23,166 nt of DNA from positions 1 through 23,166 of the IMG/VR virus record IMGVR_UViG_3300029448_000213. The stretch is one strand, 5' to 3'. The DNA is from a virus. The position numbers were made by a program, and so were the translations under genes. This document shows, one piece after another, positions 17,309-22,704 of the stretch (position 1 is the stretch's first letter; every line of letters begins with the position of its first letter). Under the pieces are notes generated by a model that was given only the letters and a program-made list of their open reading frames with translations, was not told the origin of the DNA and ran no database searches.

Positions 17309-19429
17309 TTAACCAAAAACTTCGTACCGTCTAAAAAACTTTCGGTTTAAGTCAGTTTTCTTTTTCTTTTTTACTCTTTTTTGTGCGGCAAGCAAGGCTA
17401 AACCAGAACTTATAGTTAAGTCAAATTTTGTTCTGTTGTCTATTTGGTATCCAATCCAATCCTCTAAAGTTTTGTTAAAGTACATGTTTCCAGCCTCTCC
17501 TGTATCTTGATTTAATCCTACATGATTATGTATATAAGATTCGATTGCATGAGCATGAGCCTGAATTACATCTTGAGAGTTAGAAGGAATACCTTTTGTT
17601 TTAACTTTAACCTTTGCTGAAGTTGACGTTAAGTGCTGGGGTCTATCCATAAGGTACCCGTCATACTCTCTAGACTCAAAGTATCTAGCTATACCATATT
17701 TGTTGTTCTCTATTAAAATAGGGTAACCGTAAAATACCGCAGCCATTAAAACATCTTCGTAAAAAATCTTAGCTAACGGAGGTCTTGAAGCATACTCCAG
17801 TACAAACATATTTGATGGGTGCTCTATATGAAATTTGTTGTACAAATGCAAAGCTCCTTTAGAACCTCTACCGTCTACAGTTGCATCAAGATCGTAAGAG
17901 TCTACCCCACCACAACCCATATCTGCATTAGGCGCAACTCTCTTGCCGTTATTATGTGCTTTTCTATTACGTAGGTCAGCTGGAGGCATCCAAGATATTT
18001 TAAATCTACCTCTAGGGTTAGGAGAGAATAAAACCTCAGTATCTTGTTTTCCGTCTTTCCAAACAAAATCTCCTGTTACTACTGGATTTGGAAATAAATC
18101 TTCATTAACATCTATTTGTTCATATATCTTACCTATGTTAAATATACTACCCTCGATACTATCCCTAAAGGCTTCGTCCTCTGAAAGTGGGAATTGACGT
18201 ATAACCTCGTTCATTTCTGATGCGTTATCTTTTAAAGCATCTCTTTCATTTTTTAAATATTGTTTTGCCCCAATAAGTATAGGTTCGTTATCTATACCTT
18301 CTACGGGTGTTAGGGGAGTTTCTGTAACAGGGTTTCCATATAAATCAAAGAAGCCTTCAAGAGATTCAGATGCTGGGATAAACAATCTATACAAACCTGT
18401 TCTTGTTCTTCCGTTTGCGTTTCTTGATAATGGATCCGAATCAGACCAAAGTGTTTTATACTCTTTCCCCCCTTTAGACATAGGATTAACGGTACTTCCT
18501 ACAAGTGCCTTCCCAACAATTTTTTTACCTACAATTAAGCATGTCCTTTGAATCCTCCATGCATCTCGTATATCTGTTGGCTTCTCCCATTTACCCGCCT
18601 CGTCTAAATATAGAATATGCAGTTTTTCTCCGTCATAAGCATTGTTAGTTGTGTTCTTCCAGTTTATAACTGTGTTAAGAGCCTCTCCTATTTGAGAAGT
18701 TTTATTTTTTTTCGTGATTCGTTTAGAAGGTTCTCTAAATGCTAATTCCATACGAGGGTTTGTTGTACCATCTTGAATAGGCTTAAAAAAGAACGGATAG
18801 TTTCTAAACATGTAAACCACCTTCTTCATGAAGATGTTCTCCTGAGCGTCTTTACCCGTTTTCGATTGTATCCCCATAAGCTTGTCTTTAACTTGTGTAG
18901 CTTCATCAACAAGTACAGCAGAACAAATATTGGTGTACCCAGAACGACGGCACTTAGTATAAAGCTGACCAATACAACGAGGGTCAGCCTCGCAAGCAGC
19001 CATGTGTAAAAATATTTCACGTTGAAAGTTTAAAAAATATGGGTAACCAATATCTAATTTGGTCCATTGCAACATCATGTAATGCCGCCCCGTAATATAT
19101 GTAGGTGTGCCGTTGTTATAAAACCAAATGCCTTCAGACCTACGCCTAAACTCCTCCTCGATATATGGGCGAAACTTTTCTCTAAATTCTTTTGGCGTCT
19201 CGGCCCACTCATCCATAGAACGAATACGAGACAATTCTTTTGGCATAGATATCCTTGTCCACACTTGCAAAGGCTTTGACTGGCTATATCCGAGAATTTG
19301 TTTTTTTTCAGGCTTTTTGGGAAGACAAATGAATATCCCACCGATCTCAATAATTTCACCTTCTGTACCCTTGGGGCATATTTTAATAACCTTCTCATCG
19401 TGCTCTTCTGAGTCAAGAAGCGAACTCAT
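17309..19429 (-). CDS. terL: Terminase large subunit (ATPase and nuclease)
   Basis: A 706-residue genome-packaging motor. The ATPase part has a deviant P-loop TKCRRSGYT at residues 158-166 and a Walker B HILYLDEAG with catalytic acidic pair D276/E277. A coupling-type motif ALVGSTVNPM follows at about 308-317. The RNase H-fold nuclease shows GGVDSYDLD with D510, then ILIENN with E574 and the C-terminal segment SQDVIQAHAHAIESYI. The usual P-loop lysine is replaced by Tyr165, while K159 lies five residues before G164. The gene starts on a TAATG overlap with the Cys-rich gene upstream. No terminase small subunit is recognised; the 96-residue helical protein at 21840-22130 is one candidate. Family identity is secure. 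Confidence 0.93.
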   Translation of the reverse strand: MSSLLDSEEHDEKVIKICPKGTEGEIIEIGGIFICLPKKPEKKQILGYSQSKPLQVWTRISMPKELSRIRSMDEWAETPKEFREKFRPYIEEEFRRRSEGIWFYNNGTPTYITGRHYMMLQWTKLDIGYPYFLNFQREIFLHMAACEADPRCIGQLYTKCRRSGYTNICSAVLVDEATQVKDKLMGIQSKTGKDAQENIFMKKVVYMFRNYPFFFKPIQDGTTNPRMELAFREPSKRITKKNKTSQIGEALNTVINWKNTTNNAYDGEKLHILYLDEAGKWEKPTDIRDAWRIQRTCLIVGKKIVGKALVGSTVNPMSKGGKEYKTLWSDSDPLSRNANGRTRTGLYRLFIPASESLEGFFDLYGNPVTETPLTPVEGIDNEPILIGAKQYLKNERDALKDNASEMNEVIRQFPLSEDEAFRDSIEGSIFNIGKIYEQIDVNEDLFPNPVVTGDFVWKDGKQDTEVLFSPNPRGRFKISWMPPADLRNRKAHNNGKRVAPNADMGCGGVDSYDLDATVDGRGSKGALHLYNKFHIEHPSNMFVLEYASRPPLAKIFYEDVLMAAVFYGYPILIENNKYGIARYFESREYDGYLMDRPQHLTSTSAKVKVKTKGIPSNSQDVIQAHAHAIESYIHNHVGLNQDTGEAGNMYFNKTLEDWIGYQIDNRTKFDLTISSGLALLAAQKRVKKKKKTDLNRKFFRRYEVFG

Positions 19430-19812
19430 TAAAACTTAGCTTTTATAAATCCTTTTTTATGCTTATACGGAGCCATGTATTTTGGAGCGTCTCCATCGCA
19501 ACACCATTCTGCTCCTCCCGCCCAGGGATCTATACACCAGCATTGGTTATATTTTTTAGATTGTTTCAATCTGTAATGATGTTGAGGAGAACAACTCATG
19601 AATAACATAGAGGCTGCTAAAGCCAACGCAAATGTTTGTCCAAATCTATTAGATCTAAAACCAGGGGCTCCTGACTTAGGATTAGCCAATTCCATATACT
19701 CTCCACAATCGCACTTTATGTCATGTATTACACCTACACCTTCTATGTATTTTATTGTTACACCAGACTTATCTACAACTTCATCGTTGCACTTACATTT
19801 ATATTCAGCCAT
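19429..19812 (-). CDS. Cys-rich protein with zinc-ribbon-like head and possible lipobox (127 aa)
   Basis: Two Cys-X-Cys pairs at residues 6/8 and 34/36 (YKCKCNDE and IKCDCGEYMEL) suggest a small zinc-binding ribbon. It is followed by ELANPKSGAPGFRSNRFGQT, resembling small phage proteins encoded near terminases. Residues 60-73 are then hydrophobic (TFALALAASMLFMS) and lead straight to Cys74, as in a lipoprotein lipobox. A second Cys-rich part follows, CWCIDPWAGGAEWCCDGD. The hydrophobic run is internal rather than N-terminal, so this may be a fusion of a zinc-ribbon gene with a small lipoprotein, or an internal start (Met69 or Met72) may be used. It is coupled to terminase by TAATG. Function unknown. 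Confidence 0.6.
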   Translation of the reverse strand: MAEYKCKCNDEVVDKSGVTIKYIEGVGVIHDIKCDCGEYMELANPKSGAPGFRSNRFGQTFALALAASMLFMSCSPQHHYRLKQSKKYNQCWCIDPWAGGAEWCCDGDAPKYMAPYKHKKGFIKAKF

Positions 19813-19823
19813 TTTATTTAAAT

Positions 19824-20060
19824 TTAATTACTATTTGTTTTTTTAGGTCTATTGTTAGCTCTGTTTTTAGAGGCCTTCATAAAACCCTTGATAGCGCCTC
19901 CACAATGATAAGCATCTAGACCGTCCCCTTTTTTTGTTTTGCCTTTTTTTTCGCTCTCTCTATTAAATTTATTTAATGCAGCGCGATATTTTTTAGCGAG
20001 CCCCCCTGACTGAAACTTCTTATACTCGTCTTTATAGTTTCTTTTTTTTTTTGCTTTCAT
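19824..20060 (-). CDS. Degenerate HNH-like small protein (78 aa)
   Basis: A very basic protein: KKKRNYKDEYKKFQSGG, YRAALNKFNRESEKKG, then KGDGLDAYHCGG at about 44-55 and ASKNRANNRPKK near the end. The series 'RNY--EY--Y', 'RA--N--RR', 'KGDG-D--H' and 'NR--N' is that of a small HNH-like phage protein family often found by the packaging genes. In the usual members a further His/Asn pair completes the active site. Here only His52 and the following Asn residues are left, so catalysis is doubtful. An HNH protein beside terminase often assists packaging-end cleavage, which might be retained or lost. Twelve bases separate it from the Cys-rich gene. Confidence 0.55.
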   Translation of the reverse strand: MKAKKKRNYKDEYKKFQSGGLAKKYRAALNKFNRESEKKGKTKKGDGLDAYHCGGAIKGFMKASKNRANNRPKKTNSN

Positions 20061-20078: not shown

Positions 20079-21167
20079 TTAGTACAATACCGTTATAGTC
20101 CCGTTAAACTCAAAAACGTTTACATTAACAGAACTGTGAGCGGTTATAGTGTATACATAAACTCCTGCGGAAACGTTTGCATCCCACTCATCTAAGTTAG
20201 AGGCACTAATCCAAACTAAGCTCCCCCATCTATTGTAAATACGGGTTTCCCATTGATCCCAACAAGCGCCATCTGCTATAACTTTCCAAACATCGTTTAT
20301 GCCGTCTCCGTTAGGAGTAACAGCATTAGGGGCAAAAATAGATACCTCGTCACATGGGAACGTTTGACTACATTGCTCCCCAGTATTACAGTCAATATAT
20401 ACAGACTCAGATACAAACTCAGTTATAGTGTCAGTTTCATAAATGTAAATGTATTCATATACTACAGTCTCTATAGTGTCTGTAACATACAACGTGTCTG
20501 TCGTTATCCACTCAACATCTATATATAGTGTATCCGTAAGGTACTCAATAACATCCACATATTCAATAACGTTTACATACACGGTATCACACGCAGGAGG
20601 AGCGCAGTTTATTGCGAAGTTATTTGTAAGATCTATATCAGGGTAGTTTTGAGTTTGAGTGGCACCACCTCCATTTACTGCCCAGCCACCCTCTCCAGTA
20701 GATGCTGTACGAGATAAGTTTATTTGCCATATGACTAGTTCAGTGCATAAGGTGTCATTTGATAGTATCTCTTCCCAACAATCGTTTGTACTTGACCCTG
20801 TATCATAAACATTAGCACTCCAAGTATCCCCATTCTCTAGTATCTGATTCCCGTAAAGAGTAAACACTTTAAATGTCCAACCTGGGTGATTGACTCCAGT
20901 CAAACAATCCAGCCAATTATAATCCAACCCTTCTGCATGCAATCCTAAAACTATGTGAGATACTGTTGTGTTATTATTAATATGCGAGTTTGGGCTAGTT
21001 TCGCAAGTAGTGCCTTGAGATGTAAATTCATTGCACCCGCAATTTTCACTATTAATAGCTTCAATAACAATATCACCTGATGCAGCATCCCAGCTACTTA
21101 TAGCTACATCGCATTGCGCAGATAGCGTTGGAACCCATAAAGCTAATAGATATATTAGTTTTCGCAT
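20079..21167 (-). CDS. Exported protein with T9SS type B (gliding-motility) C-terminal sorting domain (362 aa)
   Basis: A Sec signal peptide, MRKLIYLLALWVPTLSAQ, with cleavage likely after Ala17. Residues 18-193 are a Cys-rich globular part (LGLHAEGLDYNWLDCLTGV; WAVNGGGATQTQNYPDIDL). Residues 194-258 are a stalk of degenerate D-T-aromatic repeats (DTVYVNV, TDTLYIDV, TDTLYVTDTI, ETDTITEF). Residues 275-362 match the gliding-motility-associated / CHU_C C-terminal domain (TIGR04131 type): FAPNAVTPNGDGINDVWKV, IYNRWGSLVW, SAGVYVYTI and a final NGTITVLY. In Bacteroidota that domain sends proteins through the type IX secretion system to the cell surface. The start lies inside the upstream exported gene (13-base overlap), so both are co-made. 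A role in host-surface modification is inferred. Confidence 0.8.
   Translation of the reverse strand: MRKLIYLLALWVPTLSAQCDVAISSWDAASGDIVIEAINSENCGCNEFTSQGTTCETSPNSHINNNTTVSHIVLGLHAEGLDYNWLDCLTGVNHPGWTFKVFTLYGNQILENGDTWSANVYDTGSSTNDCWEEILSNDTLCTELVIWQINLSRTASTGEGGWAVNGGGATQTQNYPDIDLTNNFAINCAPPACDTVYVNVIEYVDVIEYLTDTLYIDVEWITTDTLYVTDTIETVVYEYIYIYETDTITEFVSESVYIDCNTGEQCSQTFPCDEVSIFAPNAVTPNGDGINDVWKVIADGACWDQWETRIYNRWGSLVWISASNLDEWDANVSAGVYVYTITAHSSVNVNVFEFNGTITVLY
20082..20345 (-). other. T9SS type B / CHU_C sorting domain coding region
   Basis: Residues 275-362 of the exported protein. Matches to the family by motif: 'NAVTPNGDGINDVW', 'IYNRWGSLVW', a lone W before the turn and 'AGVYVYTI', ending with a 'G-I-V/L' strand at the extreme C-terminus, as is usual for this signal. 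Confidence 0.85.
20394..20588 (-). repeat. D-T-aromatic stalk repeats
   Basis: Residues 194-258 contain repeated 'TDT-hydrophobic-Y-hydrophobic' units (CDTVYVNV, TDTLYIDVEW, TDTLYVTDTIE, ETDTITEF), alternating hydrophobic and polar and rich in Asp, Thr and Tyr. They are degenerate at DNA level and likely form an extended beta stalk between the globular part and the sorting domain. Confidence 0.75.
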
Positions 21168-21520
21168 GGAAGCCCGTAGTTTGACAAAAACAACAATAAA
21201 TCCTGAACGTCTATCGTCCCATTATTATCTAAGTCCCCAGGACACGACTCCGCCTGTATGCATGAAGCGTAATTAGGGTGTTCTGTAAGAAGCGGATATA
21301 CAAACCCATCTCCGTTTAAAACAAAAGTAGTACCTATATCAGCGCACAGTATAATGCTATAACCCCCAGTAGGCAACCCAAAGTAATGAGCGCTCCCATT
21401 ACAGTCTTGGTATTGGAAATTAGTCCACTTTTCAGCGCCCACTGAAGTAAAGACATGTTGGTTGCATTGAGATAACACAGATACAGGTAAAAATAATAAA
21501 ACAAATAAAATGTTTTTCAT
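21155..21520 (-). CDS. Exported protein with dockerin-like calcium-binding end (121 aa)
   Basis: Signal peptide MKNILFVLLFLPVSVLSQ, cleavage likely after Ser17. Residues 19-92 form a small domain with Cys, Gly and aromatic residues (YFGLPTGGYSIILCADIG). Residues 93-117 read CPGDLDNNGTIDVQDLLLFL, one dockerin-type EF-hand loop with Asp96, Asp98, Asn100, Thr102, Asp104 and Asp107 at the canonical calcium positions. Dockerins normally have two such repeats, so one is truncated or a single-loop variant. This 'CPGDLDNNG-IDV-DLL-FLS-YG' sequence is common in secreted Flavobacteriia proteins, often directly before a T9SS sorting domain. Here the sorting domain is carried by the next gene, which overlaps by 13 bases. 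It may bind that partner or a host surface protein. Confidence 0.75.
   Translation of the reverse strand: MKNILFVLLFLPVSVLSQCNQHVFTSVGAEKWTNFQYQDCNGSAHYFGLPTGGYSIILCADIGTTFVLNGDGFVYPLLTEHPNYASCIQAESCPGDLDNNGTIDVQDLLLFLSNYGLPCEN
21164..21244 (-). other. Dockerin-like EF-hand segment
   Basis: Residues 93-119, with loop DLDNNGTIDVQD matching the canonical EF-hand coordination pattern (positions 1, 3, 5, 7, 9, 12), followed by a short hydrophobic helix LLLFLSNYG. Cys93 and Cys119 flank it and could pair. Confidence 0.75.
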
Positions 21521-21537: not shown

Positions 21538-21828
21538 TTATTTTAAAGTAAAAAAATGAGCTATTCTGTGTTTTATAACATATAGTGTTGATTTTAACCA
21601 TAGTTTAAATCCTTTCTCAACGTAGCCTAAGTGAACATTGCATGTGTGGCAAAGTAAGTCTCTTACCTTTCCAGTTTTATGGCAATGATCTACTTTAGCG
21701 CTTGTAAGTTCTTTCTTGCATATAGAACACTTGTTGTTTTGTTTTTTTACTTTTTCCCCATAGTCTTCTTTAGTTAGACCATATCTTTTAAATATTTTTT
21801 GCCACCTAAAGTATTCTGGGTCTCTCAT
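21538..21828 (-). CDS. Endonuclease VII-type HNH protein (96 aa)
   Basis: Cys34-Ser-Ile-Cys37 and Cys60-His-Thr-Cys63 form a four-cysteine zinc site flanking KVDHCHKTGKVRDLLCHTCN, with D47/H48/H50 and N64 as catalytic-type residues. This is the arrangement of the Recombination endonuclease VII family (T4 gp49-type HNH fold), which cleaves branched DNA. T4 endonuclease VII is longer, with C-terminal dimerisation parts; this is close to the minimal catalytic domain, preceded by the helical segment RWQKIFKRYGLTKEDY. It may resolve branched DNA before packaging, which fits its position shortly upstream of the terminase. It may also be a homing-type single-gene endonuclease. Family match is strong, role is inferred. 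Confidence 0.85.
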   Translation of the reverse strand: MRDPEYFRWQKIFKRYGLTKEDYGEKVKKQNNKCSICKKELTSAKVDHCHKTGKVRDLLCHTCNVHLGYVEKGFKLWLKSTLYVIKHRIAHFFTLK

Positions 21829-21839
21829 TACTATTTAAG

Positions 21840-22130
21840 TTATTTTGAAAACCTTTCGGCAAAACCACCAGAGTAATCTTTTGAGCCACCTATTTCTCCG
21901 CTTGTTTTTAAGTCCTTTACCATCTGCTCTAATTTTTGCCTTTCTATAATAAGCTCTTTGCAATCTGTAGCAGTTTGTTTAATTGACTGAAGCTCTGCTT
22001 TTCTAGCGCTCCCATTAATCTCTGGGTCAACAGGTTTTTTAACCTCTTCAATCATGTTTTCTATAGCAATCTCCATGCTTGACATAAGTCTTTTGGATGC
22101 CCCTATAGTTGTGAACTTAGACTTCGACAT
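21840..22130 (-). CDS. Small helical protein, possible terminase small subunit or accessory (96 aa)
   Basis: Mostly helical: ASKRLMSSMEIAIENMIEEV, then ARKAELQSIKQTATDCKELI and IERQKLEQMVKDLKTSG, with a Gly/Ser-rich tail SKDYSGGFAERFSK. No helix-turn-helix can be read with confidence. A helical protein of this size a few genes before the large terminase could act as the small subunit, though several genes intervene. It overlaps the co-chaperonin gene by 14 bases at its start, so the two are co-translated. No family was recognised; the gene is supported by overlap, spacing and lack of conflicting frames. Confidence 0.5.
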   Translation of the reverse strand: MSKSKFTTIGASKRLMSSMEIAIENMIEEVKKPVDPEINGSARKAELQSIKQTATDCKELIIERQKLEQMVKDLKTSGEIGGSKDYSGGFAERFSK

Positions 22131-22704
22131 ACATAAGATCTTCTGCGCGAGTTCTGTAATACTCTTTACCTTCTATCTTTATTCTATAGTCTCGGTTCTG
22201 TTTGAACCCTACTATGTCATCTTTTTTAACACCTAGTTCTTTTAACCAGGGGCTATCAAAAGCAACGCGACCTTTAGTCGGTAAAGTTTCTTCCTGACTA
22301 ACAACTTCTATTAAGTCCGATTTTATTTCTAATTCTTTTTGTTCAGTAAACTCAAGCAACGCCCATCCCATAAGAGGTGATACTTTACCTGTTTTTTTGC
22401 TCTTATAGGCTATGGCCTGGTTGTTAATAGTATGCTCAGGGTCGTACCTTACTAAGTAGTGATCCTTATTCCCTGTTAAAACTTGACCTTCATTGATCAC
22501 AACAAGGTGATGGAAGTATAAGGTGTCACCTTTCTCAACACCTGTTTCGTGTTTTATAGGAGAGCAAATTACAGGACCTTCGGTTACTCTATGTTCAAAC
22601 TCATTAAACTTTGAGTCTAGGTAAAGCTCTAACCCAGAGTCTGTTGTTACTGTGTCGTTAAACTGTTTCTCCAGCTCAACGACGAATATATCTAAAGTCT
22701 TCAT
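22117..22704 (-). CDS. Tandem-domain GroES-like co-chaperonin (195 aa)
   Basis: Two Cpn10-type units occur in one chain. Domain 1 (about 1-112) shows IFVVELEKQFNDTVTTDSGL with a mobile-loop-like segment, RVTEGPVICSP and GVEKGDTLYFHH. Domain 2 (about 113-195) shows GWALLEFTEQKELEIKSDLI, a loop, LPTKGRVAFDSP, LGVKKDDIVGFKQN and the closing RTRAEDLMYVEV. A GroES is normally about 95 residues with one such unit, while T4 gp31 is a single-domain phage co-chaperonin that helps GroEL fold the capsid protein. Here the likely client is the capsid protein of this phage. Chloroplast Cpn20 is a known tandem-Cpn10 precedent. It sits 3 bases after the 79-residue gene. Confidence 0.7.
   Translation of the reverse strand: MKTLDIFVVELEKQFNDTVTTDSGLELYLDSKFNEFEHRVTEGPVICSPIKHETGVEKGDTLYFHHLVVINEGQVLTGNKDHYLVRYDPEHTINNQAIAYKSKKTGKVSPLMGWALLEFTEQKELEIKSDLIEVVSQEETLPTKGRVAFDSPWLKELGVKKDDIVGFKQNRDYRIKIEGKEYYRTRAEDLMYVEV

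Follow-up and report, generated by a model that had tools for sequence, protein, structure and literature searches.

A two-gene cassette, probably exchanged among phages of Bacteroidota, that encodes a predicted type B cargo of the host type IX secretion system

Background

Phage-encoded cargo of the type IX secretion system (T9SS) is already known, having been reported in 2019-2020 (PMC6949934, PMC7468147). In Cryophage, a phage-encoded T9SS type A cargo is variable between phage variants and the authors propose superinfection exclusion (Bellas 2020, PMC7468147), while in crAss-like contigs proteins with T9SS sorting domains are encoded upstream of the phage head section (de Jonge 2019, PMC6949934). 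Secretion of type B cargo depends on a PorP/SprF-like shuttle, which is commonly encoded adjacent to it, and orphan cargo shares one (PMC12618676, PMC9143113). The shuttles for type B cargo are few and their number seems to be stoichiometric with that of the cargo, one shuttle can serve similar C-terminal domains (CTDs), and type B CTDs that are overproduced without their shuttle are poorly secreted (PMC12618676).

The locus described here lies in a window of 23,166 nucleotides, by which we mean the whole stretch of DNA that was analysed, and it encodes a predicted type B cargo protein, P1, and a small partner, P2. Cryophage and P1 are alike in that both involve phage-encoded proteins with T9SS sorting domains, but the Cryophage domains are of type A and are carried on an endoglucanase, a GH39 protein and a PA14 protein, whereas that of P1 is type B, and the available text on Cryophage mentions no P2-like partner (PMC7468147). 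The crAss-like proteins are near the head module and T9SS-tagged like P1, but they are linked with BACON repeats and no P2-P1 cassette is mentioned in the text available (PMC6949934). In BFVD, protein A0A7S9STS8 of Virus NIOZ-UU157 matches along the P1 model by Foldseek (34% identity, E 1e-25); it is annotated as a gliding motility-associated C-terminal domain protein, a database name for which we found no description of a function or of a cassette. SprB and Fjoh_3952 of F. johnsoniae share with P1 a Sec signal and a C-terminal type B CTD, but they are cellular surface-anchored adhesins usually encoded beside a PorP/SprF shuttle, whereas the phage records have no shuttle match (PMC12618676, PMC9143113). 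In the literature searched there was no description of a type B cassette that has a conserved partner gene, lies beside endonuclease genes and exchanges its domains.

Results and discussion

The cassette and its viral neighbourhood

The window belongs to an IMG/VR record of 31,920 bases. The contig is viral: in the PHROG profile search the strand of P1 was found to encode TerL (phrog_6681, E 9e-205), a portal protein (phrog_6547, E 4e-184) and virion structural proteins. The features of the locus are as follows.

21538..21828, minus strand: Endonuclease VII-like protein (PF02945, E 1.3e-17) that adjoins the cassette; relatives frequently have a different HNH/EndoVII-type gene at this place
21155..21520, minus strand: P2, small Sec-exported partner of 121 aa; its signal peptide is followed by a core that contains Cys and is highly conserved, and it has a single EF-hand/dockerin-like motif
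21173..21244, minus strand: EF-hand/dockerin-like motif of P2, CPGDLDNNGTIDVQDLLLFLSNYG
21155..21167, minus strand: 13-nt overlap of P2 and P1, ATGCGAAAACTAA, where P2 ends C-E-N-stop and P1 starts M-R-K-L
20079..21167, minus strand: P1, predicted T9SS type B cargo protein of 362 aa, the sole CHU_C protein found on the contig
21117..21167, minus strand: P1 Sec signal peptide, residues 1-17, with inferred cleavage between A17 and Q18 (Q-rule); conserved in the family
20601..21116, minus strand: P1 head, residues 18-189, beta-rich and Cys-containing, a nearly virus-exclusive family
20373..20591, minus strand: P1 stalk, residues 193-265, with D-T-[LVI]-[YT] repeats; its length varies among relatives
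20082..20351, minus strand: type B T9SS sorting domain at the C-terminus of P1, residues 273-362 (PF13585 and TIGR04131)
19824..20060, minus strand: 78-aa basic ORF downstream of P1, which often stays with the cassette within the phage lineage of the window
19429..19812, minus strand: 127-aa ORF between the cassette and TerL, with a zinc-ribbon-like start and then a membrane/Cys segment, judged by eye

A promoter scan found 10 sites against 9.9 expected and was uninformative, and the terminator-like sites are located within coding sequence.

P1 has the architecture of type B cargo

An earlier sequence-only reading of the window had described P1 as a protein with an N-terminal Sec signal, a repeat stalk and a C-terminal CHU_C/type B domain, with the motifs TPNGDGINDVW and IYNRWG, and all of these elements were confirmed. 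In the profile search residues 279-346 match CHU_C PF13585 (E 7.3e-15, 55.3 bits, cut-off 27) and residues 279-333 match TIGR04131 (E 2.5e-9, 37.2 bits, cut-off 35), which places the C-terminal domain above the curated cut-offs of both models by which type B cargo is recognised. The N-terminal Sec signal expected of such cargo was found with our own hydropathy and Q-rule test, which counts [AGST]-Q after a hydrophobic segment; the signal peptide MRKLIYLLALWVPTLSA is followed by QC. The Q-rule of Bacteroidota has been described before (PMC5837995, PMC10653852). Once the signal peptide is cut off as inferred, the first residue would be a Bacteroidota-type Q in 51-52 of 53 non-redundant P1 and in 31 of 32 P2 sequences and thus both proteins fit the rule; the background for [AGST]-Q, a similar though not identical count, is 290 of 1,442 ORFs. 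The stalk repeats read DTVYV..DTLYI..DTLYVTDTI..DTIT. Related phages encode, at L138:326-949 and L139:3153-3698, a protein, possibly a unimolecular spanin, that has a membrane segment at its N-terminus, repeats rich in D-T and a beta-rich-looking C-terminus; its D-T spacer is of the same type as the P1 stalk.

The AlphaFold models have a mean pLDDT of 58.5 for P1 and 53.9 for P2. The P1 model is confident mainly in the sorting domain (pLDDT 74-89 per 10-residue block) and the stalk was modelled mostly at pLDDT below 50. The top VIA-align match of the C-terminal model is the CTD of the T9SS substrate NucA (8glk_D, Z 9.0, rmsd 1.9 over 72 residues), and the same list has the CTDs of RemA, RgpB, PorZ, PorU and mirolase. 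Many unrelated Ig-like domains reach Z 7-8 against this model and therefore the fold by itself is supportive and not decisive. Structure prediction, which had been suggested as a check on the sequence, thus gave a C-terminal fold like that of T9SS CTDs but left the head residues at low pLDDT. Since the head also had no match among PDB sequence profiles, we claim no function for it. Foldseek rows for RbmA and GbpA were set aside because these matches cover low-confidence regions of P1.

P2 and its overlap with P1

P2 and P1 together make up the functional unit, a modular cassette of two genes, a point that the sequence-only reading had missed. Where P2 precedes P1 their overlap is 13 nt long at 27 loci and 10 nt long at 10, and a gene-sized gap separates them in 8 more; the reverse order, P1-P2 with a gap of 1-2 nt, was found at 11 loci, several of them on very large contigs. 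When viral contigs were scanned with P2 as the query 61 loci were found, and at those that were new relative to the P1 scan P2 adjoins a CHU_C protein in every case in which the contig does not end there, with a divergent head in several cases (L101, L125, L128). P1 also occurs without P2, for example in L052, L053, L055, L060-L063, L070, L071, L074, L076 and L077, and P2 is therefore a frequent and not an obligatory partner. Among public phages the search for P2 relatives gave chance matches only.

No T9SS signal was detected in P2. The protein matches the dockerin-containing chain 2y3n_B in a profile search (E 8e-5, spanning one repeat), and it falls below the cut-offs of Pfam EF-hand and of NF041540 (13.4 bits, cut-off 29). 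We rejected P2 as a true type I dockerin because the window copy has one repeat where two are expected.

Distribution of the family

The search of viruses for phage-encoded CHU_C domains that the earlier reading had proposed was fruitful: with P1 as the query, viral DNA in IMG/VR holds relatives at no fewer than 79 distinct loci, at 30-90% identity. In pattern-based, non-exhaustive searches that used the head alignment with near-identical patterns, 130 viral stretches were picked out and the P1 head was confirmed in 107 of them, whereas in 84,980 cellular genomes it was confirmed in 1 of 50. The lone cellular match is on a 61.6-kb contig labelled as a Pseudomonadales MAG, where P2 and P1 are accompanied by further genes similar to those of phage contigs L017 and L018, and it is most simply explained as a mis-binned phage. 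Thirty-two of 35 virus records encode one CHU_C protein, one record encodes two and two encode none. The cultured phages of the collection include no carrier of the cassette. From the T9SS domain, the Q-rule and the related Flavobacterium and Cellulophaga phages we infer that the host belongs to the Bacteroidota.

Insertion site, exchange of domains and selection

The sequence-only reading had placed P1 inside a virion-assembly operon. The packaging and structural genes do lie on the same strand, but the position is an accessory insertion point, as the cassette is missing at this site in the related phages MW202828 and elemoF. In the podophage MW202828 a 76-aa gene, a GroES-like gene, a 95-aa gene and TerL follow in that order, and the first three resemble by eye the 79-aa, 195-aa and 96-aa genes of the window; in elemoF, a cultured phage of Flavobacterium, the immediate neighbour of TerL is annotated as GroES. 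At the equivalent site the window has an insert of the endonuclease, P2, P1, the 78-aa gene and the 127-aa gene. The GroES/Cpn10-like gene of the window, near TerL at 22117-22704, matches PF00166 slightly below the cut-off (E 8e-4), and L017 has a GroEL-like ORF of 528 aa.

In the lineage of the window the gene before P2 is EndoVII (PF02945) at some loci and a small HNH-like gene of 117-156 aa at others; the upstream 117-, 124- and 156-aa genes had no match in Pfam and are HNH-like by motif alone. In L125 the gene before P2 is a GIY-YIG SegE gene. The cassette is also sited elsewhere, on the L016 contig with a divergent portal and in L044 with a phrog_2 TerL and a phrog_138 head protein, and P2 and P1 co-occur across lineages whose packaging genes differ.

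Parts of the cassette are exchanged as well. In L023 the CTD is swapped while the head and P2 stay similar, and this is the clearest of several swaps, the nucleotide identity to the window being 91% for the head, 53% for the CTD and 79% for TerL. An M43 metallopeptidase gene replaces P2 in L043 and L078, and in L076 the CHU_C protein itself contains an M43 domain (these pappalysin-like proteins in the cassette slot are at L043:8692-10011, L078:7698-9707 and L076:2070-4979). By sequence resemblance M43 is on the CHU_C protein in L074 and L077 too, and at L075:7499-8771 an M43 metallopeptidase-like protein is split across two overlapping ORFs by a frameshift or a sequencing error. The genes found between P2 and P1 are DUF5675 in L024 and L016 and a DUF285 leucine-rich-repeat gene in L017 and L081; just outside the window, on the same contig (G000), a DUF5675-like gene (L221:1036-1548) strongly resembles the intervening gene of L016 and L024. 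A type A sorting domain (PF18962) is also present in 5 of 29 records, and type A domains (PF18962/TIGR04183) were seen in phage ORFs near the cassette at L033:3-1979 and L022:4419-6554.

The head, the CTD and P2 are under purifying selection. Median dN/dS is 0.10 for the head, 0.21 for the stalk, 0.11 for the CTD, 0.12 for P2 and 0.10 for TerL; dS is about 1 and near saturation, and thus these values serve for rough level and order only.

Proposed role of the cassette and its alternatives

Taken as a whole, the explanation that we favour is that P2-P1 is an accessory pair of genes, horizontally exchanged among Bacteroidota phages and carried by many marine ones, whose products are exported and of which P1 is displayed on the infected cell, and we give it a probability of about 0.7. 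The earlier reading, in which the phage hijacks host secretion for display, is well supported in this respect by the Q-rule signals, the CTD scores above cut-off, the CTD-like model and the conservation, but it overlooked both the need for a host shuttle and the two-gene unit. The purposes that it offered for the display, namely superinfection exclusion, receptor masking, release or aggregation, are conjectures, of which superinfection exclusion is a plausible one. Judged from its sequence, P1 is probably exported through the host Sec system and T9SS and displayed on infected cells. From strand and spacing, P2 and P1 would be co-transcribed with the packaging genes, and their translation is probably coupled through the overlap. 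Both proteins would be exported by host Sec, with an N-terminal Gln exposed by the host signal peptidase as the sequences suggest, and P2 would probably be periplasmic or leave with P1. By domain homology, the type B CTD of P1 would be recognised by the host T9SS and a host PorP/SprF-like shuttle, and the head would thereby be displayed on a flexible stalk at the infected cell. Parts of the T9SS or of the gliding machinery may act as phage receptors. Late in infection the cell surface may be changed, with surface adhesins and receptors masked or outcompeted, and this might reduce superinfection and re-adsorption. That displayed P1 alters the surface so as to limit superinfection or the re-adsorption of progeny is the likeliest of the roles considered, though we hold it to be less likely than not. 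We consider it improbable that P2-P1 is a mobile endonuclease-linked surface-display cassette with which many Bacteroidota phages remodel the infected cell surface by way of the T9SS, its heads, whether adhesin-like or an M43 protease, being interchangeable and its CTDs matched to host shuttles, and that phage cargo displaces SprB-type adhesins from the shuttle and thereby blocks gliding and superinfection.

A shuttle gene next to the cargo gene is common in cellular type B cargo but does not define it, and none was found beside P1. A search for PorP/SprF shuttles (PF11751) found none in 35 virus records, a good number of which are fragments; in the positive control, Persicobacter plasmid W01, five were found, one of them directly downstream of the CHU_C match of the plasmid. 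Since type B cargo needs a shuttle and none was found in these records, P1 is predicted to use a shuttle of the host, and its export may be limited because overproduced type B CTDs are poorly secreted without their own shuttle. The same facts bear on the main alternative, namely that a burst of phage type B cargo fills the few SprF-like shuttles or the SprA translocon of the host, so that SprB-type adhesins are kept off the surface, gliding stops and receptors are lost. The scarcity, seeming stoichiometry and sharing of type B shuttles (PMC12618676) are in line with such a decoy, as are the lack of a shuttle in the 35 records and the exchange of CTD types among phages, as though they were host-matched. 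However, the head is kept at high identity with a dN/dS of 0.10, which a pure decoy would not need, and we hold this alternative to be unlikely.

A role in lysis or at the outer membrane, in which the exported pair would act at the end of infection by staying periplasmic or by weakening the outer membrane, is suggested by copies that adjoin DUF5675 or an amidase endolysin (L016, L020, L024). It is very unlikely, because the T9SS CTD would then serve no purpose and neither P1 nor P2 has a membrane anchor or a known lytic domain. Less likely still is that P1 and P2 belong to the virion, for decoration or adsorption, and that the CHU_C domain binds the host T9SS or a shuttle as its receptor. The P1 gene does lie among packaging genes and on their strand, but Sec signal peptides are conserved in both proteins, the position shifts between lineages, relatives with intact structural modules are without the cassette, and neither protein matches a PHROG family. 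Finally, a chimeric assembly, which the sequence-only reading had named as grounds for giving up its view, or a captured host gene with no viral role is hardly credible even though CHU_C domains are typical of cellular Bacteroidota, because the same P2-P1 pair recurs beside the same phage genes in many independent viral contigs, the head family is almost exclusively viral and it is under purifying selection.

Conclusions

The cassette that we favour as an exported, surface-displayed unit offers a testable handle, since the two genes are defined, sprA and type B shuttles are predicted to be required, and heads and CTDs are swapped in nature. If P1 is displayed, phages would exploit the Bacteroidota-specific T9SS during infection, for which the literature that we found has only annotations in a few phages. 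This would bear on receptor access and on the control of superinfection by phages of abundant marine Bacteroidota.
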